Positions 1,237 to 63,197 of a stretch of DNA of 64,000 nucleotides are shown here, one piece after another (position 1 is the first letter of the stretch; each line of letters opens with the position of its first letter). This stretch comes from Doris montereyensis (lineage: Eukaryota; Mollusca; Gastropoda; Nudibranchia; Dorididae). Below the pieces are notes generated by a model that saw only the letters and a list, made by a program, of their open reading frames with translations, searched no databases and was not told where the DNA came from. The position numbers and the translations under genes were made by a program. Location of the stretch: the NCBI GenBank assembly GCA_037039925.1, contig JAXRKP010000191.1, positions 235,001 to 299,000 on the forward strand, written 5' to 3'.

Positions 1237-4200
1237 GTGAGCTTTAACTGTTAAATGTATAGCACTATTGGCACTAAGCTCATTTTTAAAAGTAATCTTT
1301 ATAGTACTTTTGTCAACCTTGATATTTTGATGTTATTATGTTTATTAGGTTTCGGTTATTATTTCATCCAGCCAAAAATGACAAATTTGGCATAGAAAGA
1401 AACTGAACGCTCTAAAATTTTAATCTGTTTTGTTGCCCGCTGAGGTCTAAAGCACACTTCAATGTGTCCTGACGCAAGGCTGGCATTTGTTCACTGTCAG
1501 GCCAATGGCAGTGTATGTGTCTCTGGCCTGTGGAGATAAACCTTATTGTTGCAAAATGGCTAGGAATTTCTTAACGAGACCGCTTAGCAGTCAGTTGCTA
1601 CAGGGCCAACTCCGGCGGCATGGCACAAAGCTAGTGAAAGATTGAAAGGAGGGTAAACGGTGGTTTCCTTACTTCTAAAGCCTAGAAGGCCAGTGTAGTG
1701 TGTGGGCATGGCTGGTGCAGGCTGTTTGTATGTGTGTATGCTTTAGGCCTTAGGAAATACTTGCTGTCAATATAAAACCCTTAATTAATAGTGCTAACAT
1801 TTGTGTCATGTTACTAACAAAATACTTGCTGTCAATAGAACCGTTAGTGCTTCAGCTTAACATTTGTGTCATGTTACAAAGGAAATACTTGCTGTCAATA
1901 GAACCAAGATTTGTGTAATGTTACTAAGGAAATAGTGTCAATAAAACCAGCTTCAGCTCAAGATTTGTGTAATGTTACTAAAGGAAATACTTGTTGTCAA
2001 TAAAACTGTTAATGCTTCAGTCCAAGATTTGTGTAATGTTACTAAGGAAATAAAACCGTTTGCTTCAGTCAAGATTTGTGTAATGTTACAAAAACTTGCG
2101 TTAAAACTGCTAATGCTTCAGTCCAAGATTTGTGTAATGTTACAAAGGAAATACTTACTGTCAATAAAACCGTTAGTGCTTCAGTCCAAGATTTGTGTAA
2201 TGTTACAAAGGAAATACTTGCTGTCAATAAAACCGTTAATGCTTCAGCTCAAGATTTGTGTCATGTTACTAAGGAAATACTTGCTGTCAATAAAACCGTT
2301 AATGCTTCAGTTTAACATTTGTGTCATGTTATAATGGATGTTGTTATGTGATTTCTTTTCCAGCCTGAAAACATCCTCCTTGACGACGACTTGAACCTCA
2401 AGGTATCCGACTTTGGCTTTGCCACAGTGGTAGAAGACAACGAGGAACTCTCAGGTGAGAGAGACGCACAGAGTTTGATTAGAATTAGAATTACCACGGT
2501 GATGATTTGGATGAGCCACAATAATAAAAAAAGTGACAAAACTCCACACCAAGAAAGACGTTGTGACGTTTGGGGTGAGATGTCACGGGTTTCTTCCCTG
2601 TCTTTCCTGGTGGAGTTGAGTCGTTTGATTTATGATGTTTGTTTAACACTTTTTGACTTCACTCCGCTGTGGCTCCTTTGTGTCATTCATGATGAGGATT
2701 TGTATGACTTGGGGTTCTGATGTCAGGTGCATGGGATGTAAACATAAGGTCACAGGTTTTTACTCCACCAGCTGGAATTTAATTTTTTTTTTTTTTTTAG
2801 CGAGATAGATCTCTAACATAACTGACATAACCTTGGAAAGCTTTGGGAGTAAAAGAAAAAGGAAGATTTTTGAAAATTACTCCTTGTTATATTATTTCAT
2901 CTTTTTCATCTTTTTTCTTCTTTTTCTTTCATTTCTTTCCCAGAACTGTGCGGAACTCCTGGCTATCTGGCACCTAAGACGCTGGCCCACTCCATGTATG
3001 AGAATGTGCCCGGCTATGGAAAGGAAGTGGACATGTGAGTTAGAGTCAGAGTTAGACATAAAGATGAATTAGTAGGCCGTATCTCCGCACAAGCACAGGG
3101 TCACTGACTTTACACCATTTATCCTCCGTCAGGCCATTTATTTCATTCAAAGTCTTTCTAAATGTTCCTAGGGAAAAGACAGTTAGCTGCCTACTGTTAG
3201 GCGATTCACACTGAGACTGTCATAGGGCTCTTTCTTTGTCTCTAGTACTAGCTGGGTGCTCATTCACGCCTGAGCTTATCAAGGCAGCAGCAAAGTGAAG
3301 TGCCTTTTAAGTGCAACGTCGTGGGTGGAAACAACCTTGAGCCTGCCAGGGTTTGACTCCTTGTCATCGTGATTGCAAATGCACAACACCGAGATCAATT
3401 GTGCCTCAACGCTTTAGTTTTTTTTTTTTTAGCTAAATGTATTAATAGCTAAATGTATTAATAGCTAAATGTATTAATAGCTAAATGTATTAATAGACAA
3501 ATGTAATTAATAGACAAATGTATTTAGACGGAAATGTTAAATGTGTGTGCTGTTCATGTGTGACGAAATGATTTATTTGTAGTAGAAGTTTGCTGTAAAG
3601 TTTGTATTGTAGGTAATTGTAACACCAAAACAATCACGTGTCATTTTTGTACAAAATTGCAATTTGGCGTAATGACAAGGAATAAGTCTAGATTTAAGTC
3701 TACCGTAATTTCATGTCCAAAACTCCCTACAACATTTTTTTGATTGTGCTCTTCTTGTTGTCTGTTTCAGGTGGGCCTGTGGAGTCATCATGTACACACT
3801 GTAAGTTTGAGCCGGATCCCCAAAACCAAACCCAAATTGGGTCATGTGCAAAGTTGAATTTGGGTATATCACTGATCAGGGATTGCACTTTTTCTTTTTC
3901 TGGGGAAGGGTTGGGGGAGGGGGGGGGGGATAGTTACTGATTTGTTTGTTTGCTGGAAATTGAGATTTTGTTTGTTTATTTTATTATATTTTTTTCAGGG
4001 GGTTCTTTTATTTTTTTTGGTTTTGTGTCCTTTTTTTGTTTTCTTTTGCATGGGGGTGGGTACAATCACATTGAGTTTATTTAGTACCTCTAAAGTGAAG
4101 TGAGGTGTGCTTAATCATGTGAAAAAGAAACAATTGATTGCCAGGTGTTCTCTTGCTAAGACCCAAAAAGCTAGAAATTCATTGAGGTGTTTTGATTTTG

Positions 4201-7200
4201 AAAAGTACCTACTAAAGCTAGAAATTATTGTGACAAATAACATAAGTAGATAAAATGAAAGCAAAAAAACAATAATAGACAAAAATGTGTCTTGAATTTA
4301 TTTAATACAAAATGATTTATGTGTGTAGTCTTTTAATTGTAACACCAAAACAATCACTTTTCATTTACTGCAAACTGATCTTTTTAGTCCAGATTTAACG
4401 TCATGTCCAAAACGCTCCTACAACATTTTTTTCTGTTTCGGGCCTCCATCATGTACACACCAAAAGTTTGTTGTCTGTTTCAAAAAAACCCAGAATTGGG
4501 TCTTTTCTCAAAACCAAAAATGTTGAATTTGGGTATATCACTGATCAGGGATTGCACTTTTTTTCTGGGGGAAGAGCTTTAAAATAGAATTTGTTTGTTT
4601 GCTGGAAATTGAGATTTTGTTTGTTTATTTTATTATATTTTTTCAGGGGGTTCTTTTTATTTTTTTTGGTTTTGTGTCCTTTTTTGTTTTCTTGCAAAAA
4701 GGTGAAAAAGAAAAGAGTTTAAACAGATTTTATCCCGCAATCACACTGAAAGAATAATTGAGGTGGTACTAAAGCTAGAAATATTGAGGTGTTCTTCATG
4801 TACCTACTAAAGCTAGAAATTATTGAGGTGTTCTCTGAGCTACTAAAGCTAGAAATATTGATTGAGTCATGTACCTACTAAAGCTAGCTATTATTGAGGT
4901 GTTTCTCTGAGTCATGTACCTACTAAAGCTAGAAAGTATAACATGAAACAAAAAAAAAAAGTATGCAGTAATACTCTTTTCTTTCTTCTTTTTTTTTTTT
5001 TACAAACTGATCTTTTTTGACAATGACGTGGGAATGAAAATGCCTTAACACCACAGTCACAGATCAAAATTTATAGGCTTTAAAAAATAGAAAAAAAATT
5101 TCAATCTTGTAGCAAATGAACAGATTTTGAAACAGTTGCCTATCAATTTATGCAAAAAAAGATAAAAATAAACAGATATGAAGGTACAGGACTCAGCCAG
5201 TATGTCAGAGACAATGCTAAACCATAGCAAAAGACTGAAAAAAGGCAGACCGCTGAAAAAGTGGGAAGAAGATATAAAAGAGGAACTATTATGAGTTAAA
5301 CTACAGAATAAAGAAAATGTCAGAAGAGAAGGAGAAAACATTGCATAGTAGAATTGTAGAATGAGAACTGATAAAGAGAGAAAGAAAGAACATTTTAGTA
5401 GAATGAAAACTGATAAAGAAAGAAAGAAAGAACATTTTTAAGTAGAATGAGAACTGATGAAAAAAAGAGAAATAAAGAATATTTTTAGTAGAATGAGAAC
5501 TGATAAAGAGAGAAAGAAAGAACATTTAGTAGAATGAGAACTGATAAAGAGAGAAAGAAAGAACTTTTTAGTAGAATGAGAACTGATAAAGAGAGTGAAA
5601 AAGAACATTTTTATTAGAATGAGAACTGATAAAGAGAGAAAGAAAAAGAACATTTTTAGTAAAATGAGAACTGATAAAGAGAGAAAGAAAGAACATTTTT
5701 AGTAGAATGAGAGATCTGATAAAGAGAGAAAGAAAGAACATTTTTTTAGAATGAGAACTGAAGAGAGAAAAGAAAGAAATTTTTTAGTAGAATGAGAACT
5801 GATAAAGAGAGAAAGAAAGAAATTTTTAGTAGAATGAGAAACTGATAAAGAGAGAAAGAAAAGAAATTTTTTTAGTAGAATGAGAACTGATGGGAAGAGA
5901 GAAAGAAAGAACATTTTAGTAGAATTTTTAGAGAGTCAAAGAAATTTTAGTAGAAGAACTGATAAAGAGAGAAAGAAAGAACATTTTTAGTAGAATGAGA
6001 ACTGATAAAGAGAGAAAGAAAGAACTATTTTTAGTAGAATGAGAACTGATAAAGAGAGAAAGAAAGAACATTTTTAGTAGAATGAAAACTGATAAAGAGA
6101 GAAAGAAAAGAAATATTTTTAGTAGACTGAGAACTGATAAAGAGAGAAAGAAAGAATATTTTTATTAGAATGAGATCTGATAAAGAGAGAAAGACAGAAC
6201 ATTTTTAGTAGAATGAGAACTGAAAAAGAGAGAAAGAAAGAATATTTTTAGTAGAATGAGATCTGATAAAAGAGAAAGAAAGAACATTTTTAGTAGACTG
6301 AGAACTGATAAAGAGAGAAAGAAAGAATATTTTTAATAGAATGAGAACTGATAAAGAGAGTAAAAAAGGACATTTGTATTAGAATGAGATCTGATAAAGA
6401 GAGAAAGAAAGAACATTTTTAGTAGACTGAGAACTGATAAAGAAAGAAAGAAAGAATATTTTTAGTAGAATGAGATCTGATAAAGAGAGAAAGAAAGAAC
6501 ATTTTTAGTAGACTGAGAACTGATAAAGAGAGAAAGAAAGAACATTTTTAGTAGAATGAGATTTCATAAAGAGAGAAAGAAAGAACATTTTAGTAGAATG
6601 AGAACTGATAAAGAGAGAAAGAAAGAACATTTTTAGTAGAATGAGAACTGATAAAGAGAGAAAGAAAGAATATTTTTTAGTAGAATGAGATCTCATAAAG
6701 AGAGAAAGAAAGAACATTTTTAGTAGAATGAGATCTCATAAAGAGAGAAAGAAAGAACATTTTAGATAAAATTGAAAATTCAGGATAGACATGTTTTCAG
6801 CAGAATTCTAGTGATGATATGATATGACCATTGCTTGACAACAGTTGCTACAACAAAATGCTTTCAACTCTTTGACAGATTGTGGAGCTCCTCCCTTTGG
6901 AACCGACGTCAGATGATGATGCTGCGGCGATCATGAATGCCGATTACACCTTCAACTCCCCCAGAGTGGGACGATATAAGTGATGCACCAAAGAATTTGG
7001 TAAGAGTGAAAATTTACTAGGTCGATACCCAGGCAACTAGTTTGGTGTTGTTGACCAAGGCGTTGATTAATAACCAAAGATATTGAGTGAACAGAACAAG
7101 AATTGCATGTTATAGTTATAGAATATAATGTAGAGATCTTAAGAAATATCCCTTCCCTCCTCCACACTTTTTTATGTATTATCAATATTGTTCTTAGTGA

Positions 7201-10200
7201 ATAAAAAAAATTGTTTCGTAATCATCTAAATCTTTTTTTTTTTTACAAATTGACATTTAGTTTTTTTTAACTCTCTCTTTGTTTTGTACCAGATTCAAAA
7301 TCTTCTTGTGGTCAACCCCAAAACCGGTTTACTGCGAGGCAAGCCCTCCAACATCCCTTCTTCCATAATCAGGTGAGGACGGGACAGAGTTAAAGTCATG
7401 TGTTCATGTTAACTCTTTGGTTTGCTGTGCTGGTAAGAGCGACTGCTGTGTCTCATTTTTTTCCTTTCTTTTAAAGACAACACGTAGGCGGCGGTTGGCG
7501 GGGGCTACTGGTAGGTCCTACTTTTCCCTTCACGCTTTCACCATGTCTTTCTTTCATCTTGCTGTTTCTGCCTCAATTCACCATGAGATTACTGCATACA
7601 TATGATGGATGATGTATATTTTAATGAAGACAACAACAAAATCATAGTATGCCTGAGAGGAGGTTGAACTCAAATTTGGTTTTCTTCAACTTCATTTACA
7701 ATGAGTTACGTTGTCATTATGTCAATATCACAACTCGTTTACATTACAATCCAATTTGTGTAAGTACATGTATGTCTTTTAACCAAGTTATATATATGCT
7801 ATGTACATTTAACACCTTCCATGTAGTGAAAGTAAGATAACATGACCGACCTGATATCTCTTAAGTTTGCTAAACATTATAGTGTTTTTGGTTCTAACAG
7901 CTACACAGATTATACAGTACGTTTAGGTAAGGAGGTACCAGCTGACATATCTTTGAGAGCCGTTTATGCTCACTTGATTGTAATTTTGTTTTTCATTTAA
8001 TTGGTTCTGTTCCTTTATTTGTATAAATTTGAATTTGAATCTTTCTTGTTGTTAAATTTAGTTTAATGTTTTTCATTCTTTTACGCCGCATTGTTCCAGA
8101 GTTTCTTTTTACAAGTGAAATTGTAAAGTGAGTCGTGAAAATTGAAAGGTGTAAATGAGGAAATTATGCAAGCCTCAAAAAAACTTTTTGGTTAAGGTCC
8201 ATAGTATATGGTTTTTTGAGCAATTATATAGAAAATTATATATTTGTTGGAGAAATAAATATATATATATTATGATATATATATATATGTACTAAATATT
8301 TTAACATGTCTTATATACAGTAAATGCTGAAATATTTTGTGGTTGACACCTGTCTTACATACAGTAAATGCTGAAATATTTTGTGGTTGACACCTGTCTT
8401 ACATACAGTAAATGCTGAAATATTTTATGGTTGACACCTGTCTTACATACAGTAAATGCTGAAATATTTTGTGGTTGGACACCTGTCTTACATACAGTAA
8501 ATGCTGAAATATTTTGTGACACCTGTTGTCACTGTCTTACATACAGTAAATGCTGAAATATTTTGTGGTTGTCACCTGTCTTACATACAGTAAGTGCTGA
8601 AAATATTTTGTAAGTGCTGAAATATTTTGTTGTCACCTGTCTTATATACAGTAAGTGCTGAAATATTTGTGGTTGACACTTGTCTTACATACAGTGCTGA
8701 AATATTTTGTGGTTGCTGAAATAATTTTGTGGTTGTCACCTGTCTTACATACAGTAAGTGCTGAAATATTTTGTGGTTGTCACCTGTCTTACATACAGTA
8801 AGTGCTGAAATATTTTGTGGTTGTCACCTGTCTTATATACAGTAAGTGCTGAAATATTTTGTGGTTGTCACCTGTCTTACATACATGCTGAAATATGTTG
8901 TGGTTGTCACTGTCTTATACAGTAAGTGCTGAAATATTTTGTGGTTGACTCTGAAATATTTTGTGGGTTGTCTTACATACAGTAAGTGCTGAAATATTTT
9001 GTGGTTGTCACTCTTTGTCTTACATACAGTAAGTGCTGAAATATTTTGTATTGTCACCTGTCTTACATACAGTAAGGGCTGTCTTGTCACCTGTCTTACA
9101 TACAGCAAGTGCTGAAAGTAAGTACAGTAAGTGCTGAAATATGTTGCGGGCACTGCTGGTAGGCCCTTCTTCTTTTCTTTCTTTCTTCCACTCTTTCACT
9201 TGCTTTCATCCTGCTGTTTCCACCTTAATTCACACTGAAATCACCACAAATGGTGAACGTGGGGTAAAAACAAACAAACAAACTTAAATATTTTTTCTTA
9301 TGATGAGTCATGTTGGCAGTTTGGGAGGGAAGGGGGTGGGGGGGGGTGGAGGAGGAAGGCTCTACTGATGGTTTGTACTTCTTTCCTTTCACCCTTTCAC
9401 ATGTATTTCATCTTGCTCTCTCCTTTGAATTCCCCCTCCCCCTCTTGAGACCACCATGATGGACTGGGCTCATTCCTATGAAACAAACAAACAAACAATA
9501 TTATGTTTAAATGAAAGAATAGCTGCCGTTTGAATCAGGCTTTAAAAAATCTTTGTTTTTTAGTCGATGAGGCTTTTAAAAGCTTTGACAGCATTAACTA
9601 ACACTGTATTTACACTGCTCCTTTTGTTTTATCCACAGCCTTAATTGTGTTTTTTATCGGCCGTACATTCCTTGTAATATGTTTCATGTCATGTGTCAAT
9701 TCAAATTAATTTTATCCTCAATCTCCACCAGGTACAAGATCAAAAGAAATTTAACGCTTAGGAGGAAATTTAGGTGAGTACTTTAACACTAGGAGGAAAT
9801 TTAGGGTGAGTACTTTAACACTAGGAGGAAATTTAGGGTGAGTACTTTAACACTAGAGGAAATTTAGGTGAGTACTTAACACTAGGAGGAAATTTAGGGT
9901 GAGTACTTTAACGCTAGGAGGAAATTTAGGGTGAGTACTTTAACGCTAGGAGGAAATTTAGGGTGAGTACTTTTAACGCTAGGAGGAAATTTAGGTGAAT
10001 ATTTTAATGCTAGGAGGAAATTTAGGGTGAATATTTTAATGCTAGAGGAAATTTAGTGAGTACTAACTTTTTAATGAGGATTGGACGGTGGTAGGCCCAA
10101 TGGATTTTCCAACGTTGTATGGACGGTGACATCGTCCGATAGACTAGGGAAAATAAAGAAAATTTTGGATAAACGGAATAAAATTAAAGTCTTATAGAAT

Positions 10201-10884
10201 TGAAGCTCAATAGCTAGTGTGCATACTTGGAACAGCTTGTATGCGTGATATTTTTAAAGAAATGGTAATGAATTTAAATAGACAAAAGGGCTGCGGTGGT
10301 ATTTGTGTGTAGTTTATGTTCACCGTGTAAATGCATTAAAAGCATTTTTTGCACTTATGTTATTCAGCACTGATTTTGTCACAAGCAATGTAAATGTATT
10401 GTTTGTACAATAAATAGCCTTTGTGTCAAACATTCTGTTACAAAGGAAAAGAAAAGTTTCTATAGCATAAAGGTACACAGATGTTAATAAAAATGTGCAA
10501 TTGGATGGTGTTTTCACTTAAGAATCTGTTCTCACAGTGCAATCCAGTGTTAAGTATGATGATTACTTTTATTTATTCAACAACATCAAAATGTTGCATT
10601 TCAAAACCATTGCTGTCAAATTTCCATGTCTGAGTTTGCATTTCCTTTCCTTCCTTCTCCCCAAATCAGGCTAGTGTGTTTTGTGTATTGTTCTACACGC
10701 GACTCCACTTCTTCTACAAGCATCCGCCCCAATTTCCAAGAAGACCGTCAGCACCAACCCCTACAGCATCAAGATCATGCGTAAAATCATCGACACGTGT
10801 GCGTTTGGCATGTACCGCCACTGGGTCAAGAGGGTGGACAACCAGAACAGAGCCGCTCTGTTTGAGCACACCTTTGCGCGATGA
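1165..10884 (+). CDS. PHKG: Phosphorylase b kinase gamma catalytic subunit, 3' part of a spliced gene
   Basis: This Ser/Thr kinase is the catalytic subunit of phosphorylase kinase; it phosphorylates glycogen phosphorylase and is regulated by alpha, beta and calmodulin (delta) subunits. Eight exons are visible: 1165-1236, 2364-2454, 2944-3034, 3771-3800, 6879-6999, 7293-7372, 9732-9773 and 10670-10884. In order they carry the HRDLK catalytic loop, PENILLDDD, the DFG motif (SDFGF), the activation segment ([12 protein letters not shown]), [39 protein letters not shown] and the C-terminal block [16 protein letters not shown]. The Glu before the LCGTP stretch is the family's substitute for a phosphorylated residue and implies constitutive activity. 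N-terminal exons (glycine loop, VAIK lysine) lie outside the window. Oddities: small indels break the frame in exons 5-8, and the APE glutamate reads as Lys. All splice sites are GT-AG. Consensus error is likelier than a pseudogene, but the latter cannot be excluded. Confidence 0.92.
1748..2335. repeat. 64-bp intronic tandem repeat
   Basis: About nine copies of a roughly 64-bp unit containing CAAGATTTGTGTAATGTTAC and ACTTGCTGTCAATAAAACCG. The first copies are truncated. The array ends less than 30 bp before the next PHKG acceptor, so it sits where the branch point would normally be. Confidence 0.92.
2364..2454 (+). CDS. PHKG: PHKG exon with PENILL and DFG motifs
   Basis: It encodes [20 protein letters not shown] and then VVEDNEELS. 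It contains the subdomain VIb PEN motif and the metal-binding DFG. The acceptor is TTCTTTTCCAG and the donor CAG|GTGAGA. The exon is 91 bp, ends in phase 1 and joins in frame to the next exon. Confidence 0.94.
2944..3034 (+). CDS. PHKG: PHKG exon with activation segment
   Basis: Joined to the previous exon it gives [13 protein letters not shown] and then [10 protein letters not shown]. The family-typical Glu before LCGTP is present, but the third residue of the APE motif is Lys (AAG at 2976-2978). The acceptor is TTTCTTTCCCAG and the donor ACAT|GTGAGT. The exon is 91 bp with frame intact. Confidence 0.93.
3080..3420 (-). mobile_element. tRNA-derived SINE, family 3
   Basis: The layout matches 49385-49675 and 49690-49985: GCAGGCTCATC-like start, a CAGGCCATTTATTTCATTCA block, AGCTGGGTGCTCATTCACGC in the middle, and at the right an antisense Pol III B-box-like GGGTTTGACTCC followed by CATCGTGATTGCAAATGCAC. 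The head is therefore at the right and the element is on the minus strand, in a PHKG intron. Confidence 0.7.
3431..3525. repeat. 16-bp tandem repeat
   Basis: Five to six copies of AGCTAAATGTATTAAT, the last ones diverged. It directly follows the T-rich right end of the adjacent SINE. Confidence 0.9.
3610..4700 (+). repeat. Imperfect tandem duplication including a PHKG exon
   Basis: The segment 3610-4045, with the exon at 3771-3800, recurs at about 4335-4700. Shared blocks are GTAACACCAAAACAATCAC, GGGTATATCACTGATCAGGG, GCTGGAAATTGAGATTTTG and TCAGGGGGTTC. The second copy has lost part of the exon; about GGGCC..TCCATCATGTACACAC remains near 4440-4461, with no good donor after it. Confidence 0.85.
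3771..3800 (+). CDS. PHKG: PHKG micro-exon ([10 protein letters not shown])
   Basis: This 30-bp exon completes the Met of VDM and encodes WACGVIMYT plus two bases of Leu, equivalent to kinase subdomain IX (WSTGVIMYTL in vertebrate PHKG). The acceptor is CTGTTTCAG and the donor CACT|GTAAGT. Phases match both neighbours. Confidence 0.93.
4740..4940. repeat. About 43-bp tandem repeat
   Basis: Four to five copies of a unit containing CCTACTAAAGCTAGAAATTA and TTGAGGTGTTCTCTGAG. Single related units occur near 4160-4230. It lies in the PHKG intron. Confidence 0.88.
5175..5340 (+). mobile_element. 5'-truncated RTE-like LINE, 3' end
   Basis: The plus-strand frame reads [20 protein letters not shown] and then a stop. 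This matches the C-terminal motif [20 protein letters not shown] encoded by the large LINE at 38836-42185. The LINE 3' terminus follows directly, expanded into the next array. Only about 165 bp of body remains. It lies in a PHKG intron, in the gene's orientation. Confidence 0.85.
5340..6768. repeat. 43-bp array derived from a LINE 3' terminus
   Basis: About 33 copies of AGTAGAATGAGAACTGATAA followed by AGAGAGAAAGAAAGAACATT. The reverse complement contains TTTCTTTCTCTCTTTATCAG and TTCTCATTCTAC, which corresponds to the 3' end of the LINEs at 38836 and 56880 (TTTCTTTATCAGTTCCCATT and CTACC). The array follows the truncated LINE at 5175-5340, in the position of its 3' tail. Confidence 0.93.
6879..6999 (+). 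CDS. PHKG: PHKG exon ([18 protein letters not shown]), frame broken
   Basis: Alignment to the family pattern recovers [25 protein letters not shown], and [13 protein letters not shown], but in different frames. At least four indels (about -2, -1, -1, +1; net -3) must be assumed, all in short repeats or homopolymers. The 121-bp length fits an intact 124-bp exon minus three. The acceptor is CTTTGACAG and the donor TTTG|GTAAGAG. It lies about 110 bp after the 43-bp array, where a consensus would be least reliable. Confidence 0.9.
7293..7372 (+). CDS. PHKG: PHKG exon ([15 protein letters not shown]), one frameshift
   Basis: It encodes [11 protein letters not shown], then after a one-base gap [15 protein letters not shown], the end of the kinase domain (subdomain XI Arg region). 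The missing base is in the ACC-CGG run around 7325. The exon is 80 bp where 81 is expected. The acceptor is TTTTGTACCAG and the donor CAG|GTGAGG. Confidence 0.92.
7500..7650 (+). repeat. Dispersed repeat family 5
   Basis: Shared layout with copies at 9140-9290, 9345-9505 and 22510-22640: GGTAGGTCCTACTT, a pyrimidine-rich stretch, TTTCATCTTGCTGTTTC, CAATTCACCATGAGAT, then ATGATGGATGATG and an A-rich (CAACAACAAA) end. It looks like a SINE 3' part or another short retroposon; no tRNA-like head was seen. Confidence 0.65.
8305..9145. repeat. About 44-bp tandem repeat
   Basis: About 19 copies of a unit with CTTACATACAGTAAGTGCTG, AAATATTTTGTGGTTG and TCACCTGT. Early copies have AGTAAATGC instead of AGTAAGTGC. 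Several units are truncated or fused. It lies in the PHKG intron between 7372 and 9732. Confidence 0.94.
9140..9290 (+). repeat. Dispersed repeat family 5 with (CAAA)n end
   Basis: It contains TGGTAGGCCCTTCTTCTTTT, TTTCATCCTGCTGTTTCCAC, AATTCACACTGAAATCACCA, GGTGAACGTGGGGTAAA and ends in (CAAA)n at about 9270-9282. A simple-repeat 3' end suggests a retroposon. Confidence 0.65.
9345..9505 (+). repeat. Dispersed repeat family 5, second adjacent copy
   Basis: A diverged copy in the same orientation, just after a G-rich tract. It has CTTCTTTCCTTTCACCCTTT, TTTCATCTTGCTCTC, GAGACCACCATGATGG and a (CAAA)n end at about 9482-9500. The pair at 9140 and 9345 is a head-to-tail arrangement. Confidence 0.6.
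9732..9773 (+). CDS. PHKG: PHKG exon ([14 protein letters not shown]), one extra base
   Basis: It encodes VQDQKKFNA, then an extra T makes TAG; without it RRKFR follows, matching the linker after the kinase domain (RGKFK in vertebrates). The acceptor is CCACCAG. The donor here is TTTAG|GTGAGT, but downstream repeat copies read TTTAGG|GTGAGT, which restores phase 0 with the last exon. One G is probably missing at the first donor. Confidence 0.88.
9760..10065 (+). repeat. Minisatellite made from a PHKG exon end plus its 5' splice donor
   Basis: Nine to ten copies of a roughly 32-bp unit: TTTAACGCTAGGAGGAAATT then TAGGGTGAGTAC. The first half is the coding end of the exon at 9732-9773 and the second half its donor. 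The array thus repeats an exon-intron junction in the sense direction. Confidence 0.93.
10670..10884 (+). CDS. PHKG: PHKG last exon, calmodulin-binding C-terminus
   Basis: It reads [17 protein letters not shown], then after a one-base gap near 10730 [35 protein letters not shown] and [14 protein letters not shown] before TGA at 10882-10884. The block from RKIIDTCAF to NQNRAALFE corresponds to the C-terminal calmodulin-binding region of PHKG (PhK5 peptide region). The acceptor is CCCCAAATCAG after a strong pyrimidine tract. If a base is missing before the stop, the frame would continue with [13 protein letters not shown] to TAA at 10921; which end is real is open. Confidence 0.92.
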
Positions 10885-10921
10885 CTGGAAGCACGGATCG
10901 ATCGCCAATAGTGGATCTTAA

Positions 10922-10927
10922 AATAAA
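10922..10927 (+). terminator. Candidate PHKG polyadenylation signal
   Basis: AATAAA lies 38 bp after the PHKG stop and is followed within about 60 bp by a T-rich and then G-rich stretch (TTTTTTTTACTATTC, GGGGGGGG), as in a downstream GU-rich element. The very short 3' UTR is unusual, so a more distal site is possible. Confidence 0.5.
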
Positions 10928-22949: not shown

Positions 22950-24209
22950 CTGTTCTATGTTTATGCTTCTGTTCCATTGTGACTGTGTTCCATGTGTGTG
23001 ATTGTGTTTCCATGTGTGTGACTGTGTTCCAAGTGTGTGACTGTGTTCTATGTGTGTGACTGTGTTCCATGTGTGTGACTGTGTTCTATGTGTGTGATTG
23101 TGTTCCACGTGAGTGATTGTGTTCCATGTGTGTGACTGTGTTCCATGTGTGTGACTGTGTCTCCATTTATGTGACTGTGTTCCATGTGTGTGATTGTGTT
23201 CCATGTGTGTGACTGTGTTCCAAGTGTGTGACTGTGTTCAATGTGTGTGACTGTGTTCCATGTGTGTGACTGTGTTCCATGTGTGACTGTGTTCCATTGT
23301 ATGACTGTGTTCCATGTGTGTGATTGTGTTCCATTTATGTGATTGTGTTCCATGTGTGTGACTGTGTTCCATGTGTGTGACTGTGTTCCATTTATGTGAC
23401 TGTGTTCCATGTGTGTGACTGTATTCCATGTGTGTGACTGTGTTCCATGTTTGACTGTGTTCATGTGTGTGACTGTGTTCCATGTGTGTGACTGTGTTCC
23501 ATGTTTGACTGTGTTCCATGTGTGTGACTGTGTTCCATGTGTGTGACTGTGTTCAATTTATGTGACATGTTTGACTGTGTTCCATTTATGTGACTGTGTT
23601 CCATGTGTGCTTAGACTGTGTTCCATTTATGTGACTGTGTTCCATGTGTGTGACTGTGTTCCATTTATGTGACTGTGTTCCATGTGTGTGACTGTGTTCC
23701 ATTTATGTGATTGTGTTCCATGTGTGTGACTGTGTTCCAAAACTGTGTTCCATTTGTGTGAATTTCTCATGTGTGTGATTGTGTTCCATGTGTGTGACTG
23801 TGTTCCAAGTGTGTAACTGTGTTCAATGTGTGTGACTGTGTTCATGTGTTCCACGTGTGTGACTGTGTTCCATGTGTGTGACTGTGTTCCATGTGTGTGA
23901 CTGTGTTCTATGTGAAAGAGTGTTCCATTTATGTGATTGTGTTCCATGTGTGACTGTGTTCCATGTGTGTGACTGTGTTCCATTTAGACTGTGTTCCATG
24001 TGTGTGACTGTATTCCATTTATGTGAAGAGTGTTCCATAACTGTGTTGACTGTGTTCCATGTTTGACTGTGTTCCATTTGTGTGACTGTGTTCCATGTGT
24101 GTGACTGTGTTCCATGATTTCCAGTTTATGTGACTGTGTTCCATTTACACTGTGTTCCATTTATGTGACTGTGTTCCAAACTGTGTTCCATTTATGTGAC
24201 TGTGTTCCA
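22950..24209. repeat. 19-bp satellite, left decayed block
   Basis: Tandem TGTTCCATGTGTGTGACTG with many truncated or fused units, mixed with the TGTTCCATTTATGTGACTG variant. It is more irregular than the central block. Confidence 0.97.
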
Positions 24210-24281
24210 AAAAATTATCACAAGAAAAAGTTTTCCCACCAGATATATCACCAATAAATATGAATTTATCAACATAAAACA
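24210..24281. other. 72-bp non-satellite interruption
   Basis: An AT-rich segment (for example CCCACCAGATATATCACCAA) splits the satellite. It is the only non-satellite stretch noticed in the array. Confidence 0.85.
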
Positions 24282-27200
24282 ATGTGTGTGACTGTGTTCT
24301 ATGTGTGTGACTGTGTTCTATGTGTGTGACTGTGTTCTATGTGTGTGACTGTGTTCCATGTGTGTGACTGTGTTCCATGTGTGTGACTGTGTTCCATGTG
24401 TGTGACTGTGTTCCATGTGTGTGACTGTGTTCCATGTGTGTGATTGTGTTCCATGTGTGTGACTGTGTTCTAAGTGTGTGACTGTGTTCTATGTGTGTGA
24501 CTGTGTTCTATGTGTGTGACTGTGTTCTATGTGTGTGACTGTGTTCTATGTGTGTGACTGTGTTCTATGTGTGTGACTGTGTTCTAAGTGTGTGACTGTG
24601 TTCCATGTGTGTGACTGTGTTCTAAGTGTGTGACTGTGTTCCATGTGTGTGACTGTGTTCTAAGTGTGTGACTGTGTTCCATGTGTGTGACTGTGTTCTA
24701 TGTGTGTGACTGTGTTCTATGTGTGTGACTGTGTTCTAAGTGTGTGACTGTGTTCTATGTGTGTGACAGTGTTCTAAGTGTGTGACTGTGTTCTATGTGA
24801 GTGACTGTGTTCTATATGTGTGACTGTGTTCTATGTGTGTGACCGTGTTCCATGTGTGTGGCTGTGTTCTATGTGTGTGACTGTGTTCCATGTGTGTGAC
24901 TGTGTTCTAAGTGTGTGACTGTGTTCTATGTGTGTGACTGTGTTCTATGTGTGTGACTGTGTTCTATGTGTGTGACTGTGTTCCATGTGTGTGACTGTGT
25001 GTTCCACGTGTGTGACTGTGTTCTATGTGTGTGACTGTGTTCCATGTGTGTCACTGTGTTCTAGGTGTGTGACTGTGTTCTAAGTGTGTGACTGTGTTCT
25101 AAGTGTGTGACTGTGTTCTATGTGTGTGACTGTGTTCCATGTGTGTGACTGTTCCATGTGTGTGACTGTGTTCCATGTGTGTGACTGTGTTCCATTTATG
25201 TGACTGTGTTCCATGTGTGTGACTGTGTTCTAAGTGTGTGACTGTGTTCTAAGTGTGTGACTGTGTTCTAAGTGTGTGACTGTGTTCCATTTATGTGACT
25301 GTGTTCCATGTGTGTGACTGTGTTCCATTTATGTGAATGTGTTCCATGTGTGTGACTGTGTTCCATTTATGTGACTGTGTGCCATGTGTGTGACTGTGTC
25401 CATTTATGTGACTGTGTTCCATGTGTGTGACTGTGTTCCATTTATGTGACTGTGTTCCATTTATGTGACTGTGTTCCATGTGTGTGACTGTGTTCCATTT
25501 ATGTGACTGTGTTCCATGTGTGTGACTGTGTTCCATTTATGTGATTGTGTTCCATGTGTGTGACTGTGTTCCATGTTTGATTGTGTTCCACGTGTGTGAC
25601 TGTGTTCTATGTGTGTGGCTGTGTTCTATGTGTGTGACTGTGTTCTATGTGTGTGACTGTGTTCTATGTGTGTGACTGTGTTCTATGTGTGTGACTTGTG
25701 TTCTATGTGTGTGATTGTGTTCTAAGTGTGTGACTGTGTTCTATGTGTGTGATTGTGTTCTATGTGTGTGATTGTGTTCTATGTGTGTGACTGTGTTCCA
25801 TGTGTGTGACTGTATTCTATGTGTGTGACTGTGTTCCATGTGTGTGACTGTGTTCTATGTGTGTGACTGTGTTCTATGTGTGTGACTGTGTTCCATGTGT
25901 GTGACTGTGTTCCATGTGTGTGATTGTGTTCCATGTGTGTGACTGTGTTCCATGTGTGTGACTGTGTTCCATGTGTGTGATTGTGTTCCATGTGTGTGAC
26001 TGTGTTCTAAGTGTGTGACTGTGTTCTATGTGTGTGACTGTGTTCTATGTGTGTGACTGTGTTCCATGTGTGTGACTGTGTTCTATGTGTGTGACTGTGT
26101 TCTATGTGTGTGACTGTGTTCTATGTGTGTGACTGTGTTCTAAGTGTGTGACTGTGTTCCATGTGTGTGACTGTGTTCTATGTGTGTGACTGTGTTCCAT
26201 GTGTGTGACTGTGTTCTAAGTGTGTGACTGTGTTCCATGTGTGTGACTGTGTTCTATGTGTGTGACTGTGTTCTATGTGTGTGACTGTGTTCTAAGTGTG
26301 TGACTGTGTTCTATGTGTGTGACAGTGTTCTATGTGTGTGACTGTGTTCTATGTGAGTGACTGTGTTCTATGTGTGTGACTGTGTTCTATGTGTGTGACT
26401 GTGTTCTATGTGTGTGACTGTGTTCCATGTGTGTGACTGTGTTCTATGTGTGTGACTGTGTTCCATGTGTGTGACTGTGTTCTAAGTGTGTGACTGTGTT
26501 CTATGTGTGTGACTGTGTTCTATGTGTGTGACTGTGTTCTATGTGTGTGACTGTGTTCCATGTGTGTGACTGTGTTCCATGTGTGTGACTGTGTTCTAAG
26601 TGTGTGACTGTGTTCTATGTGTGTGACTGTGTTCTATGTGTGTGACTGTGTTCTATGTGTGTGACTGTGTTCCATGTGTGTGACTGTGTGTTCCACGTGT
26701 GTGACTGTGTTCTATGTGTGTGACTGTGTTCCATGTGTGTGACTGTGTTCTAAGTGTGTGACTGTGTTCTAAGTGTGTGACTGTGTTCCATGTGTGTGAC
26801 TGTGTTCCATTTATGTGACTGTGTTCCATGTGTGTGACTGTGTTCTAAGTGTGTGACTGTGTTCTAAGTGTGTGACTGTGTTCCATTTATGTGGCTGTGT
26901 TCCATGTGTGTGACTGTGTTCCATTTATGTGAATGTGTTCCATGTGTGTGACTGTGTTCCATTTATGTGACTGTGTGCCATGTGTGTGACTGTGTTCCAT
27001 TTATGTGACTGTGTTCCATGTGTGTGACTGTGTTCCATTTATGTGACTGTGTTCCATTTATGTGACTGTGTTCCATGTGTGTGACTGTGTTCCATTTATG
27101 TGACTGTGTTCCATGTGTGTGACTGTGTTCCATTTATGTGATTGTGTTCCATGTGTGTGACTGTGTTCCATGTTTGATTGTGTTCCACGTGTGTGACTGT

Positions 27201-30200
27201 GTTCTATGTGTGTGGCTGTGTTCTATGTGTGTGACTGTGTTCTATGTGTGTGACTGTGTTCTATGTGTGTGACTGTGTTCTATGTGTGTGCTTGTGTTCT
27301 ATGTGTGTGATTGTGTTCTAAGTGTGTGACTGTGTTCTATGTGTGTGATTGTGTTCTATGTGTGTGACTGTGTTCCATGTGTGTGACTGTGTTCTATGTG
27401 TGTGATTGTGTTCTATGTGTGTGACTGTGTTCTATGTGTGTGACTGTGTTCCATGTGTGTGACTGTGTTCCATGTGTGTGACTGTGTTCCATGTGTGTGA
27501 TTGTGTTCTATGTGTGTGACTGTGTTCTATGTGTGTGATTGTGTTCTAAGTGTGTGACTGTGTTCTATGTGTGTGATTGTGTTCTATGTGTGTGACTGTG
27601 TTCCATGTGTGTGATTGTGTTCTATGTGTGTGACTGTGTTCTATGTGTGTGGCTGTGTTCCATGTGTGTGACTGTGTTCCATGTGTGTGATTGTGTTCCA
27701 TGTGTGTGATTGTGTTCCATGTGTGTGACTGTGTTCCATGTGTGTGATTGTGTTCCATGTGTGTGACTGTGTTCTAAGTGTGTGACTGTGTTCTATGTGT
27801 GTGACTGTGTTCCATGTGTGTGACTGTGTTCTATGTGTGTGACTGTGTTCTATGTGTGTGACTGTGTTCTATGTGTGTGACTGTGTTCCATGTGTGTGAC
27901 TGTGTTCTAAGTGTGTGACTGTGTTCCATGTGTGTAACTGTGTTCTAAGTGTGTGACTGTGTTCCATGTGTGTGACTGTGTTCTATGTGTGTGACTGTGT
28001 TCTATGTGTGTGACTGTGTTCTAAGTGTGTGACTGTGTTCTATGTGTGTGACTGTGTTCTATGTGTGTGACTGTGTTCTATGTGTGTGACTGTGTTCTAT
28101 GTGTGTGACTGTGTTCCATGTGTGTGACTGTGTTCCATGTGTGTGACTGTGTTCTAAGTGTGTGACTGTGTTCTATGTGTGTGACTGTGTTCTATGTGTG
28201 TGATTGTATTCTATGTGTGTGACTGTGTTCCATGTGTGTGACTGTGTGTTCCACGTGTGTGACTGTGTTCTATGTGTGTGACTGTGTTCCATGTGTGTGA
28301 CTGTGTTCTAAGTGTGTGACTGTGTTCTAAGTGTGTGACTGTGTTCCATGTGTGTGACTGTGTTCCATGTGTGTGACTGTGTTCTATGTGTGTGATTGTG
28401 TTCTATGTGTGTGACTGTGTTCTATGTGTGTGATTGTGTTCTAAGTGTGTGACTGTGTTCTATGTGTGTGATTGTGTTCTATGTGTGTGACTGTGTTCCA
28501 TGTGTGTGACTGTGTTCCATGTGTGTGATTGTGTTCTATGTGTGTGACTGTGTTCTATGTGTGTGGCTGTGTTCCATGTGTGTGACTGTGCTCCATGTGT
28601 GTGATTGTGTTCCATGTGTGTGACTGTGTTCCATGTGTGTGACTGTGTTCCATGTGTGTGATTGTGTTCCATGTGTGTGACTGTGTTCTAAGTGTGTGAC
28701 TGTGTTCTATGTGTGTGACTGTGTTCCATGTGTGTGACTGTGTTCTATGTGTGTGACTGTGTTCTATGTGTGTGACTGTGTTCCATGTGTGTGACTGTGT
28801 TCTATGTGTGTGACTGTGTTCTATGTGTGTGACTGTGTTCTATGTGTGTGACTGTGTTCCATGTGTGTGACTGTGTTCTAAGTGTGTAACTGTGTTCCAT
28901 GTGTGTAACTGTGTTCTAAGTGTGTGACTGTGTTCTATGTGTGTGACTGTGTTCTATGTGTGTGACTGTGTTCTAAGTGTGTGACTGTGTTCTATGTGTG
29001 TGACTGTGTTCTAAGTGTGTGACTGTGTTCTATGTGTGTGACTGTGTTCTAAGTGTGTGACTGTGTTCTATGTGTGTGACTGTGTTCTATGTGTGTGACT
29101 GTGTTCCATGTGTGTGACTGTGTTCTATGTGTGTGACTGTGTTCCATGTGTGTGACTGTGTTCTAAGTGTGTGACTGTGTTCTATGTGTGTGACTGTGTT
29201 CTATGTGTGTGATTGTGTTCTATGTGTGTGACTGTGTTCTATGTGTGTGACTGTGTTCCATGTGTGTGACTGTGTTCCATGTGTGTGACTGTGTTCCATG
29301 TGTGTGACTGTGTTCCATGTGTGTGACTGTGTTCCATGTGTGTGACTGTGTTCTATGTGTGTGACTGTGTTCCATGTGTGTGACTGTGTTCTATGTGTGT
29401 GACTGTGTTCTATGTGTGTGACTGTGTTCCACATGTGTGACTGTGTTCCACGTGTGACTGTGTTCCACGTGTGTGACTGTGTTCCATTTGTGTGACTGTG
29501 TTCCATGTGTGTGACTGTGTTCTATGTGTGTGACTGTGTTCTATGTGTGTGACTGTGTTCCATGTGTGTGACTGTGTTCTATGTGTGTGACTGTGTTCCA
29601 CGTGTGTGACTGTGTTCCATTTGTGTGACTGTGTTCCATGTGTGTGACTGTGTTCTATGTGTGTGACTGTGTTCCATGTGTGTGACTGTGTTCCATGTGT
29701 GTGACTGTGTTCTATGTGTGTGATTGTGTTCCATGTGTGTGACTGTGTTCCATGTGTGTGACTGTGTTCCATTTATGTGACTGTGTTCTATGTGTGTGAC
29801 TGTGTTCCATGTGTGTGATTGTGTTCCATTTATGTGACTGTGTTCCATGTGTGTGACTGTGTTCCATGTGTGTGACTGTGTTCCATTTATGTCACTGTGT
29901 TCCATGTGTGTGACTGTGTTCCATGTGTGTGACTGTGTTCTATGTGTGTGACTGCGTTCTATGTGTGTGACTGTGTTCCATTTATGTGACTGTGTTCCAC
30001 ATGTGTGACTGTGTTCCACGCGTGTGACTGTGTTCCACGTGTGTGACTGTGTTCCATTTGTGTGACTGTGTTCCATGTGTGTGACTGTGTTCCATGTGTG
30101 TGACTGTGTTCCATGTGTGTGACTGTGTTCCATGTGTGTGACTGTGTTCCATGTGTGTGACTGTGTTCTATGTGTGTGATTGTGTTCCATGTGTGTGATT

Positions 30201-33200
30201 GTGTTCCATGTGTGTGACTGTGTTACATGTGTGTGACTGTGTTCCATGTGTGTGACTGTGTTCCATGTGTGTGATTGTGTTCCATGTGTGTGACTGTGTT
30301 CCATGTGTGTGACTGTGTTCTATGTGTGTGACTGTGTTCCATGTGTGTGATTGTGTTCCATTTATGTCACTGTGTTCCATGTGTGTGACTGTGTTCCATG
30401 TGTGTGACTGTGTTCCATTTATGTCACTGTGTTCCATGTGTGTGACTGTGTTCCATGTGTGTGACTGTGTTCCATGTGTGTGACTGTGTTCTATGTGTGT
30501 GACTGCGTTCTATGTGTGTGACTGTATTCCATGTGTGTGACTGTGTTCTATGTGTGTGACTGTATTCTATGTGTGTGACTGTGTTCTATGTGTGTGACTG
30601 TGTTCTATGTGTGTGATTGTGTTCCATGTGTGTGACTGTGTTCCATGTGTGTGACTGTATTCCATGTGTGTGACTGTGTTCTATGTGTGTGACTGTATTC
30701 CATGTGTGTGACTGTGTTCTATGTGTGTGACTGTGTTCTATGTGTGTGACTGTGTTCCATGTGTGTGACTGTGTTCCATGTGTGTGACTGTGTTCCATGT
30801 GTGTGACTGTGTTCCATGTGTGTGACTGTGTTCCATGTGTGTGATTGTGTTCTATGTGTGTGACTGTGTTCTATGTATGTGACTGTGTTCCATGTGTGTG
30901 ACTGTGTTCCATGTGTGTGACTGTGTTCTATGTGTGTGACTGTGTTCTATGTGTGTGATTGTGTTCTATGTGTGTGATTGTGTTCTAAGTGTGTGACTGT
31001 GTTCTATGTGTGTGATTGTGTTCTATGTGTGTGACTGTTCCATGTGTGTGACTGTGTGGCATGTGTGTGATTGTGTTCTATGTGTGTGACTGTGTTCCAT
31101 GTGTGTGACTGTGTTCCATGTGTGTGACTGTGTTCCATGTGTATGATTGTGTTCTATGTGTGTGATTGTGTTCTATGTGTGTGACTGTGTTCCATGTGTG
31201 TGACTGTATTCTATGTGTGTGACTGTGTTCCATGTGTGTGACTGTGTTCTATGTGTGTGACTGTGTTCTATGTGTGTGACTGTGTTCTATGTGTGTGACT
31301 GTGTTCTATGTGTGTGACTGTGTTCCATGTGTGTGACTGTGTTCCATGTGTGTGATTGTGTTCCATGTGTGTGACTGTGTTCCATGTGTGTGACTGTGTT
31401 CCATGTGTGTGATTGTGTTCCATGTGTGTGACTGTGTTCTAAGTGTGTGACTGTGTTCTATGTGTGTGACTGTGTTCTATGTGTGTGACTGTGTTCTATG
31501 TGTGTGACTGTGTTCTATGTGTGTGACTGTGTTCTATGTGTGTGACTGTGTTCTAAGTGTGTGACTGTGTTCCATGTGTGTGACTGTGTTCTAAGTGTGT
31601 GACTGTGTTCCATGTGTGTGACTGTGTTCTAAGTGTGTGACTGTGTTCCATGTGTGTGACTGTGTTCTATGTGTGTGACTGTGTTCTATGTGTGTGACTG
31701 TGTTCTAAGTTTGTGACTGTGTTCTATGTGTGTGACAGTGTTCTAAGTGTGTGACTGTGTTCTATGTGAGTGACTGTGTTCTATGTGTGGGACTGTGTTC
31801 TATGTGTGTGACCGTGTTCCATGTGTGTGGCTGTGTTCTATGTGTGTGACTGTGTTCCATGTGTGTGACTGTGTTCTAAGTGTGTGACTGTGGTCTATGT
31901 GTGTGACTGTGTTCTATGTGTGTGACTGTGTTCTATGTGTGTGACTGTGTTCCATGTGTGTGACTGTGTGTTCCACGTGTGTGACTGTGTTCTATGTGTG
32001 TGACTGTGTTCCATGTGTGTGACTGTGTTCTAGGTGTGTGACTGTGTTCTAAGTGTGTGACTGTGTTCTAAGTGTGTGACTGTGTTCTATGTGTGTGACT
32101 GTGTTCCATGTGTGTGACTGTTCCATGTGTGTGACTGTGTTCCATGTGTGTGACTGTGTTCCATTTATGTGACTGTGTTCCATGTGTGTGACTGTGTTCT
32201 AAGTGTGTGACTGTGTTCTAAGTGTGTGACTGTGTTCTAAGTGTGTGACTGTGTTCCATTTATGTGACTGTGTTCCATGTGTGTGACTGTGTTCCATTTA
32301 TGTGAATGTGTTCCATGTGTGTGACTGTGTTCCATTTATGTGACTGTGTGCCATGTGTGTGACTGTGTCCATTTATGTGACTGTGTTCCATGTGTGTGAC
32401 TGTGTTCCATTTATGTGACTGTGTTCCATTTATGTGACTGTGTTCCATGTGTGTGACTGTGTTCCATTTATGTGACTGTGTTCCATGTGTGTGACTGTGT
32501 TCCATTTATGTGATTGTGTTCCATGTGTGTGACTGTGTTCCATGTTTGATTGTGTTCCACGTGTGTGACTGTGTTCTATGTGTGTGGCTGTGTTCTATGT
32601 GTGTGACTGTGTTCTATGTGTGTGACTGTGTTCTATGTGTGTGACTGTGTTCTATGTGTGTGCTTGTGTTCTATGTGTGTGATTGTGTTCTAAGTGTGTG
32701 ACTGTGTTCTATGTGTGTGATTGTGTTCTATGTGTGTGATTGTGTTCTATGTGTGTGACTGTGTTCCATGTGTGTGACTGTATTCTATGTGTGTGACTGT
32801 GTTCCATGTGTGTGACTGTGTTCTATGTGTGTGACTGTGTTCTATGTGTGTGACTGTGTTCCATGTGTGTGACTGTGTTCCATGTGTGTGATTGTGTTCC
32901 ATGTGTGTGACTGTGTTCCATGTGTGTGACTGTGTTCCATGTGTGTGATTGTGTTCCATGTGTGTGACTGTGTTCTAAGTGTGTGACTGTGTTCTATGTG
33001 TGTGACTGTGTTCTATGTGTGTGACTGTGTTCCATGTGTGTGACTGTGTTCTATGTGTGTGACTGTGTTCTATGTGTGTGACTGTGTTCTATGTGTGTGA
33101 CTGTGTTCTAAGTGTGTGACTGTGTTCCATGTGTGTGACTGTGTTCTAAGTGTGTGACTGTGTTCCATGTGTGTGACTGTGTTCTAAGTGTGTGACTGTG

Positions 33201-36200
33201 TTCCATGTGTGTGACTGTGTTCTATGTGTGTGACTGTGTTCTATGTGTGTGACTGTGTTCTAAGTGTGTGACTGTGTTCTATGTGTGTGACAGTGTTCTA
33301 AGTGTGTGACTGTGTTCTATGTGAGTGACTGTGTTCTATGTGTGTGACTGTGTTCTATGTGTGTGACTGTGTTCTATGTGTGTGACTGTGTTCCATGTGT
33401 GTGACTGTGTTCTATGTGTGTGACTGTGTTCCATGTGTGTGACTGTGTTCTAAGTGTGTGACTGTGTTCTATGTGTGTGACTGTGTTCTATGTGTGTGAC
33501 TGTGTTCTATGTGTGTGACTGTGTTCCATGTGTGTGACTGTGTGTTCCACGTGTGTGACTGTGTTCTATGTGTGTGACTGTGTTCCATGTGTGTGACTGT
33601 GTTCTAGGTGTGTGACTGTGTTCTAAGTGTGTGACTGTGTTCTAAGTGTGTGACTGTGTTCTATGTGTGTGACTGTGTTACATGTGTGTGACTGTGTTCC
33701 ATGTGTGTGACTGTGTTCCATGTGTGTGATTGTGTTCCATGTGTGTGACTGTGTTCCATGTGTGTGACTGTGTTCTATGTGTGTGACTGTGTTCCATGTG
33801 TGTGATTGTGTTCCATTTATGTCACTGTGTTCCATGTGTGTGACTGTGTTCCATGTGTGTGACTGTGTTCCATGTGTGTGACTGTGTTCCATTTATGTGA
33901 ATGTGTTCCATGTGTGTGACTGTGTTCCATTTATGTGACTGTGTGCCATGTGTGTGACTGTGTTCCATTTATGTGACTGTGTTCCATGTGTGTGACTGTC
34001 TTCCATTTATGTGACTGTGTTCCATTTATGTGACTGTGTTCCATGTGTGTGACTGTGTTCCATTTATGTGACTGTGTTCCATGTGTGTGACTGTGTTCCA
34101 TTTATGTGATTGTGTTCCATGTGTGTGACTGTGTTCCATGTTTGATTGTGTTCCACGTGTGTGACTGTGTTCTATGTGTGTGGCTGTGTTCTATGTGTGT
34201 GACTGTGTTCTATGTGTGTGACTGTGTTCTATGTGTGTGACTGTGTTCTATGTGTGTGCTTGTGTTCTATGTGTGTGATTGTGTTCTAAGTGTGTGACTG
34301 TGTTCTATGTGTGTGATTGTGTTCTATGTGTGTGACTGTGTTCCATGTGTGTGACTGTGTTCTATGTGTGTGATTGTGTTCTATGTGTGTGACTGTGTTC
34401 TATGTGTGTGACTGTGTTCCATGTGTGTGACTGTGTTCCATGTGTGTGACTGTGTTCCATGTGTGTGATTGTGTTCTATGTGTGTGACTGTGTTCTATGT
34501 GTGTGATTGTGTTCTAAGTGTGTGACTGTGTTCTATGTGTGTGATTGTGTTCTATGTGTGTGACTGTGTTCCATGTGTGTGACTGTGTTCCATGTGTGTG
34601 ATTGTGTTCTATGTGTGTGACTGTGTTCTATGTGTGTGGCTGTGTTCCATGTGTGTGACTGTGTTCCATGTGTGTGATTGTGTTCCATGTGTGTGATTGT
34701 GTTCCATGTGTGTGACTGTGTTCCATGTGTGTGATTGTGTTCCATGTGTGTGACTGTGTTCTAAGTGTGTGACTGTGTTCTATGTGTGTGACTGTGTTCC
34801 ATGTGTGTGACTGTGTTCTATGTGTGTGACTGTGTTCTATGTGTGTGACTGTGTTCTATGTGTGTGACTGTGTTCTATGTGTGTGACTGTGTTCCATGTG
34901 TGTGACTGTGTTCTAAGTGTGTGACTGTGTTCCATGTGTGTAACTGTGTTCTAAGTGTGTGACTGTGTTCCATGTGTGTGACTGTGTTCTATGTGTGTGA
35001 CTGTGTTCTATGTGTGTGACTGTGTTCTAAGTGTGTGACTGTGTTCTATGTGTGTGACTGTGTTCTATGTGTGTGACTGTGTTCTATGTGTGTGACTGTG
35101 TTCTATGTGTGTGACTGTGTTCCATGTGTGTGACTGTGTTCCATGTGTGTGACTGTGTTCTAAGTGTGTGACTGTGTTCTATGTGTGTGACTGTGTTCTA
35201 TGTGTGTGATTGTGTTCTATGTGTGTGACTGTGTTCCATGTGTGTGACTGTGTGTTCCACGTGTGTGACTGTGTTCCACGTGTGTGACTGTGTTCCATGT
35301 GTGTGACTGTGTTCTAAGTGTGTGACTGTGTTCTAAGTGTGTGACTGTGTTCCATGTGTGTGACTGTGTTCCATGTGTGTGACTGTGTTCTATGTGTGTG
35401 ATTGTGTTCTATGTGTGTGACTGTGTTCTATGTGTGTGATTGTGTTCTAAGTGTGTGACTGTGTTCTATGTGTGTGATTGTGTTCTATGTGTGTGACTGT
35501 GTTCCATGTGTGTGACTGTGTTCCATGTGTGTGATTGTGTTCTATGTGTGTGACTGTGTTCTATGTGTGTGGCTGTGTTCCATGTGTGTGACTGTGTTCC
35601 ATGTGTGTGATTGTGTTCCATGTGTGTGACTGTGTTCCATGTGTGTGACTGTGTTCCATGTGTGTGATTGTGTTCCATGTGTGTGACTGTGTTCTAAGTG
35701 TGTGACTGTGTTCTATGTGTGTGACTGTGTTCCATGTGTGTGACTGTGTTCTATGTGTGTGACTGTGTTCTATGTGTGTGACTGTGTTCTATGTGTGTGA
35801 CTGTGTTCTATGTGTGTGACTGTGTTCTATGTGTGTGACTGTGTTCCATGTGTGTGACTGTGTTCCATGTGTGTGACTGTGTTCTAAGTGTGTAACTGTG
35901 TTCCATGTGTGTAACTGTGTTCTAAGTGTGTGACTGTGTTCTATGTGTGTGACTGTGTTCTATGTGTGTGACTGTGTTCTAAGTGTGTGACTGTGTTCTA
36001 TGTGTGTGACTGTGTTCTAAGTGTGTGACTGTGTTCTATGTGTGTGACTGTGTTCTAAGTGTGTGACTGTGTTCTATGTGTGTGACTGTGTTCTATGTGT
36101 GTGACTGTGTTCCATGTGTGTGACTGTGTTCTATGTGTGTGACTGTGTTCCATGTGTGTGACTGTGTTCTAAGTGTGTGACTGTGTTCTATGTGTGTGAC

Positions 36201-43710: not shown

Positions 43711-43779
43711 AACAAATGATTTCTCTTGGATAATTTGACACTCTCCTCTATGTTCACTTATTATACTGACAAAAAAATA

Positions 43780-44015
43780 CTGACATCATTCTGATGGTCC
43801 CACCAATGTCGATACAATATCATATATAGAAGTGAAGGTAATGACATACGATAATATGAAAGCACCATAGGAACAAAGACGAGACAAATACAAAGAATAG
43901 ACAGGAAAAATCCTGGCCACCATGGGGATCGAACCCTTGACCTCTGCGGCGGCACCCATCGCCTCGCCATGAAAAGAAAGCGTGCTACCAACTGAGCTAA
44001 CTACGCTCCCCGAAT
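43780..44015 (-). mobile_element. tRNA-derived SINE, family 4
   Basis: The minus strand reads GCGTAGTTAGCTCAGTTGGT (A-box) and, about 60 bp on, AAGGGTTCGATCCCCATGG (B-box). The insert between is too long and the acceptor stem does not pair, so it is not a functional tRNA. The body continues with TTGTCTCGTCTTTGTTCCTA and GTGCTTTCATATTATCG. The same text is at 63050-63195. Confidence 0.85.
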
Positions 44016-63195: not shown

Positions 63196-63197
63196 AG

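Follow-up and report, generated by a model that had tools for sequence, protein, structure and literature searches.

A minisatellite that runs across an exon–intron boundary of the gene for PHKG, the activator of glycogen breakdown, lies at 9750-10064 on the plus strand of a 64,000-nucleotide stretch of the Doris montereyensis genome (the window hereafter). Its ten copies of a 32-nt unit begin with the end of a short coding exon, and each unit joins coding sequence to a 5' splice donor. Judged on its sequence and setting, the array is probably a molluscan minisatellite of the "mirage" type known from amphioxus, that is, a neutral tandem expansion of the PHKG exon end and its donor that would be spliced mostly at the first donor.

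The PHKG gene and the likely founder exon

Alignment to the PHKG protein of Arion vulgaris located eight exons on the plus strand: a (1165-1236), b (2365-2454), c (2944-3034), d (3771-3800), e (6881-6999), f (7294-7372), g (9732-9773) and h (10670-10922). Exon f, which precedes exon g, ends in phase 0 with ...HPFFHNQ|. Exon g follows the acceptor CCACCAG at 9725-9731, is only 42 nt long (phase 0/0), corresponds to Arion residues 295-307, and its last 24 nt are the first copy of the repeat. Exon h encodes the C-terminus behind the acceptor CAG|GCT; it aligns to Arion residues 309-383 over 10670-10894, and its end at 10922 is an estimate. The N-terminal part was not found in the window and presumably lies upstream of it. 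A mammalian PHKG1 used as a query found exons from about 1180 onward. In an alignment allowing frame breaks, 189 of the 238 aligned codons over the eight exons were identical to Arion vulgaris PHKG. The conserved kinase motifs are present, and all seven introns between the exons found have intact GT and AG ends. A translation of exon g joined to the last exon, pieced together from different frames, matched the PHKG catalytic chain in a search of the PDB (E=2e-14, one distinct sequence matched). This match and the Arion alignment bear out the proposal of an initial annotation of this DNA that the repeat stems from a PHKG exon–intron junction.

A search with the joined-exon protein returned 5192 relatives, headed by Arion vulgaris phosphorylase kinase, which by itself would make a gastropod mollusc the most likely source of the window. 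The block encoded by exon g, 13-15 residues with F at the penultimate column, is present in 119 of the best 120 of these relatives; the exception, a Batillaria protein (P0043), is also without another stretch. In the protein model of Lottia (P0023), 23 extra residues starting with VS are inserted exactly at the end of the block, which looks as if a GTGAG donor had been read through. Because the block is so widely kept, and because the Batillaria gap and the Lottia insertion fall at its boundary in these protein models, the junction that follows exon g looks old and is apparently common to the relatives. The block is conserved coding sequence, and exon g is therefore the likely founder of the repeat.

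Anatomy of the array and its donors

Tandem Repeats Finder reported a period of 32, 10.0 copies and 92% matches at 9750-10064. When the array was split at its donors, ten GTGA[AG]TA sites were obtained, namely the donor at which exon g is expected to be spliced (9774-9781), six further strong donors starting at 9806, 9838, 9868, 9899, 9931 and 9963 (9806-9970), and three degraded donors starting at 9995, 10027 and 10056 (9995-10063). The unit consists of 24 exonic nt, the last 24 of exon g, and GTGAGTAC, the 8 nt with which the intron opens, in agreement with the earlier description of it as about 24 bp of exon plus donor. Nine extra copies of the exon end and donor follow exon g, and the "nine or ten" sense copies of that description become ten only when the exon's own donor is counted. 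Instead of the 32-33 bp given there, the donors are spaced 29-32 nt apart over the ten copies and 30-32 nt apart within the seven strong ones, and the copies differ in length by a base or two within short runs. For a 23-base core of the unit, six matches with at most three mismatches (substitutions only) were found in the window, as against none in 100 shuffles. No exact match to the unit was found among the IMG/VR viral contigs, a comparison that is uninformative for an animal genome, and no inverted repeats of at least 12 that could form a hairpin were found in 9700-10700.

A usable-looking TTTAGG|GTGAGT had been ascribed to every copy. It is exact in five of the ten (copies 2, 3, 5, 6 and 7), and copies 1 and 4 read TTTAG|GTGAGT; copies 8, 9 and 10 are degraded to GTGAAT, GTGAAT and TTTA|GTGAGT. 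On a human-type weight matrix with a maximum of 12.6, copies 1-7 scored 10.0-10.9 and copies 8, 9 and 10 scored 7.1, 6.2 and 5.5. Duplex energies against the 5' end of U1 told the same story: copies 1-7 gave -11.5 to -12.2 kcal/mol and copies 8-10 gave -6.3 to -7.1 kcal/mol, with the other six donors of the PHKG gene ranging from -5.4 to -11.7 kcal/mol. The first donor, at -12.2 kcal/mol, is thus almost matched in strength by those of copies 2-7.

Apart from run lengths, variation among the ten copies is confined to four columns, two of the 24 exonic and two of the 8 intronic ones (a fifth column marked in the copy alignment reflects where a missing base was placed), so that these ten copies give no sign that the donor part was better preserved than the remainder of the unit. 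Copies 2-7 vary at a single substitution site and in run lengths, and copies 8-10 have drifted. The copy at the 5' edge has no substitution of its own and does not differ by substitution from the interior copies 6 and 7.

Probable neutral growth and its rivals

The surroundings of the array suggest neutral growth, since minisatellites cover much of the window and contact exons no more often than chance would have it. Counted over the whole window at a period of at least 12 and at least 2.5 copies, and merged within 50 bases, 16 arrays occupy 25,382 bases (39.7%); six of them lie inside the PHKG gene span, and at least one occurs in five of the seven introns that separate the exons found. Only one of the 16 arrays contacts an exon, and only one of the eight PHKG exons is contacted. 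Random placement, with the eight PHKG exons counted, touched a mean of 2.61 exons when all arrays in the window were used, 1.40 when the window was taken without its 15.5-kb array, and 2.73 when the six arrays were placed within the gene span; placements with no contact made up 11.2%, 26.4% and 1.8%, respectively. With 1.4-2.7 exons touched at random against one seen, the single contact needs no special cause, and a preferential seeding of arrays at exons was rejected on the same figures.

Repeated donor-like sites at a score of at least 8 occur in two of the 16 arrays, that of PHKG (7 sites) and another at 60915-61648 (11 sites); one such site occurs in each of two further arrays. The array at 60915-61648 is a 42-nt minisatellite of about 17 copies with 11 strong AAG|GTAAGA donor-like sites, 5 of the variant AAGGTAAAA, and no source exon is evident by eye near it. 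That so many strong donor-like sites occur in an array near which no exon was seen counts for the mirage reading of the PHKG array.

Several other features of the window were recorded. The array at 8307-9134, in the intron before exon g, holds 11 of the 20 plus-strand GTAAGT hexamers of the window, but no donor-like site at a score of at least 8 was found in it when it was taken as 8307-9081. A minisatellite at 1799-2338 stops 27 bases short of PHKG exon b. The 15.5-kb array (22978-38476) is built of about 816 copies of the 19-nt unit TGTGACTGTGTTCCATGTG. Pairs of 69-nt tandem units that closely resemble each other occur at 41978-42115 and 50185-50322 and suggest a dispersed element, and two open reading frames with similar translations, at 43761-44000 and 62979-63218 (minus strand), hint at a dispersed repeat family. 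Broken open frames at 39189-41856 (minus strand) resemble by eye a decayed non-LTR retrotransposon, and a Pfam scan of four retrotransposon-like frames in that interval gave no match at E 0.001. Rfam, run on the whole window at gathering scores, gave one match only, a tRNA-like one of 38.5 bits at 49227-49298 (minus strand), outside the PHKG array.

On the mirage reading, a duplication in a minisatellite-rich region would first have copied the end of the short PHKG exon along with the 5' splice donor. Because copy 1 retains the coding end and the donor, each extra copy would land in the intron, where it would be tolerated and able to grow. Splicing would occur mainly at the first donor, with some leakage to later donors; the resulting mRNAs would be out of frame or carry an early stop, and nonsense-mediated decay would remove most of them. 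The outcome of such leakage was read from a model built of consensus units throughout; its last exon kept the frame breaks of the written sequence, and the tail obtained with donor 1 is therefore not the true one. In this model the expected exon results from donor 1, splicing from donor 2 enters the last exon in a shifted frame, and donors 3-10 share a single TGA, 28 to 252 nt before the junction. For donors 4-10 the TGA lies at least 60 nt before the junction, which exceeds the roughly 50 nt of the rule for nonsense-mediated decay. The initial annotation had expected donor choice to change both exon length and frame. In the model the frame does shift with donor 2, and the longer forms from donor 3 onward end at their shared stop. 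As a means of diversifying the protein, the ladder of alternative donors that the annotation had envisaged is unlikely, since the extended isoforms are truncated or frame-shifted with no intact product, and it was rejected on these frames. Copy 1 as written carries an in-frame TAG in exon g where the proteins of relatives read on, so that, taken literally, all ten donor choices would yield the same truncated peptide.

Two points from earlier work weigh against the mirage reading. If the intron-proximal of two comparable donors is favoured, as stated in PMC6002489, splicing at a later copy would be expected, copies 2-7 being nearly as strong as the first; and PMC3087553 allows for cryptic splicing at mirage copies. 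The lack of substitutions that would set the 5' edge copy apart from copies 6 and 7 also counts against it, as do the frame breaks of the gene as written.

A functional donor ladder in PHKG is possible but not supported. As a working device, in which later donors would be used in a copy-number-dependent manner, stop-containing mRNAs would be destroyed and array length would set PHKG output, it is unlikely. It could draw on the seven strong donors, and in the consensus-unit model donors 3-10 share one TGA that, for donors 4-10, lies beyond the decay limit. Precedents are offered by downstream donors in IFI6 (PMC4526556) and by stochastic splicing in UBC (PMC10809524), and the 29-32 nt spacing of the PHKG donors approaches the U1 footprint given in PMC6002489. 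Against it, three of the ten donors have decayed, substitutions affect a larger share of the columns in the 8 intronic nt than in the 24 exonic ones, and lancelet mirages are described in PMC3902484 and PMC3087553 as leaving splicing undisturbed. Its more specific form, a length-variable device of seven strong donors at about the U1-footprint spacing and three weakened ones, in which more copies would cause more PHKG transcripts to be destroyed, is very doubtful; if true, array length would set the level of PHKG.

It is also distinctly unlikely that this copy of PHKG is a decaying pseudogene in which the array grew free of constraint. Such decay would account for the in-frame TAG and for seven frame breaks in 734 coding nt relative to Arion. 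All seven breaks, however, are found in the four exons e-h and none in a-d, and they fall within or next to short runs, one of them in copy 1 of the array; a noisy assembly could produce such a pattern (the alignment modelled one-base breaks only) and would be its simplest reading. The kinase motifs, the codons shared with Arion and the GT and AG ends retained by the seven introns also speak against decay.

Downstream U1 sites can act as enhancers of exon recognition, and exon g is short with six strong U1 sites just downstream, but an intronic U1 array that aids its recognition is highly improbable: protein comparison finds the same block in nearly all of the best relatives, and a need for the array is unsupported. 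The U1-titrating decoy of the initial annotation was rejected, as the donor part is not better kept, three donors have decayed, and nothing is specific to the PHKG array, the one at 60915-61648 being similarly rich in strong donor-like sites with no exon seen.

Comparison with known repeats at splice sites

The human IFI6 (6-16, G1P3) minisatellite, reportedly described by Turri et al. in 1995, is like the PHKG array in supplying repeated splice donors. Two of its downstream repeat units serve as donors (PMC4526556). Good donors in several units are found in PHKG as well (7 of 10 strong), but its unit is 32 nt whereas that of IFI6 is 12 bp and in frame, its extended forms are truncated, and none of its downstream donors gives an in-frame isoform in the consensus-unit model. 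In human UBC, stochastic splicing along a tandem array of dual-specific AGGT sites is described in PMC10809524. The likeness lies in a splice signal in every tandem unit; the UBC repeats, however, are whole coding units, whereas PHKG copies 2-10 are intronic and AGGT stands at the donor in copies 1, 4 and 8 only.

Short tandem duplication of coding sequence with splice signals also links the PHKG array to intron gain, which has been ascribed to tandem duplication of AGGT-bearing exon segments (PMC4974935, PMC3629103), and variable tandem repeats at exon–intron boundaries may cause novel introns (PMC2812944). In PHKG no new intron is evident, and the boundary of exon g appears, from protein models, to be common to the relatives. 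No mollusc case of such repeats emerged from a literature search judged on the titles and abstract openings of the top-ranked papers, most subscription papers being beyond reach, and nothing on them was found in the accessible part of PMC7931591.

Of two comparable donors, the intron-proximal one is said to be favoured, for a reason called not known in PMC6002489 (2018), where the U1 footprint is put at 23 exonic and 12 intronic nt. Seven near-identical donors in one native gene would make donor choice measurable without engineering, and the PHKG array thus offers a natural experiment on the choice between splice sites that are almost the same.

The closest counterparts are the amphioxus mirages, minisatellite-like repeats across exon–intron boundaries of Adh3, TnC and the globins BflGb6 and BflGb9, with similar duplications in PGBD5 (PMC3902484, PMC3087553). 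Lancelet Adh and TnC mirages are said in PMC3902484 to yield no aberrant mRNAs, RT-PCR of Adh3 and globin indicated that regular splicing was apparently undisturbed (PMC3087553), and the latter allows that mirage copies could serve as cryptic sites. PMC3087553 also describes an edge effect in which interior copies are homogenised and edge copies are not. Among the ten PHKG copies, drift is seen at the 3' edge (copies 8-10) but not at the 5' edge, a partial resemblance only. As a tandem repeat across an exon–intron boundary, the PHKG array is placed with the mirages by its anatomy, and it differs from them in belonging to a mollusc and in lying at the 5' boundary of a PHKG intron, which suggests that mirage minisatellites are not confined to lancelets.
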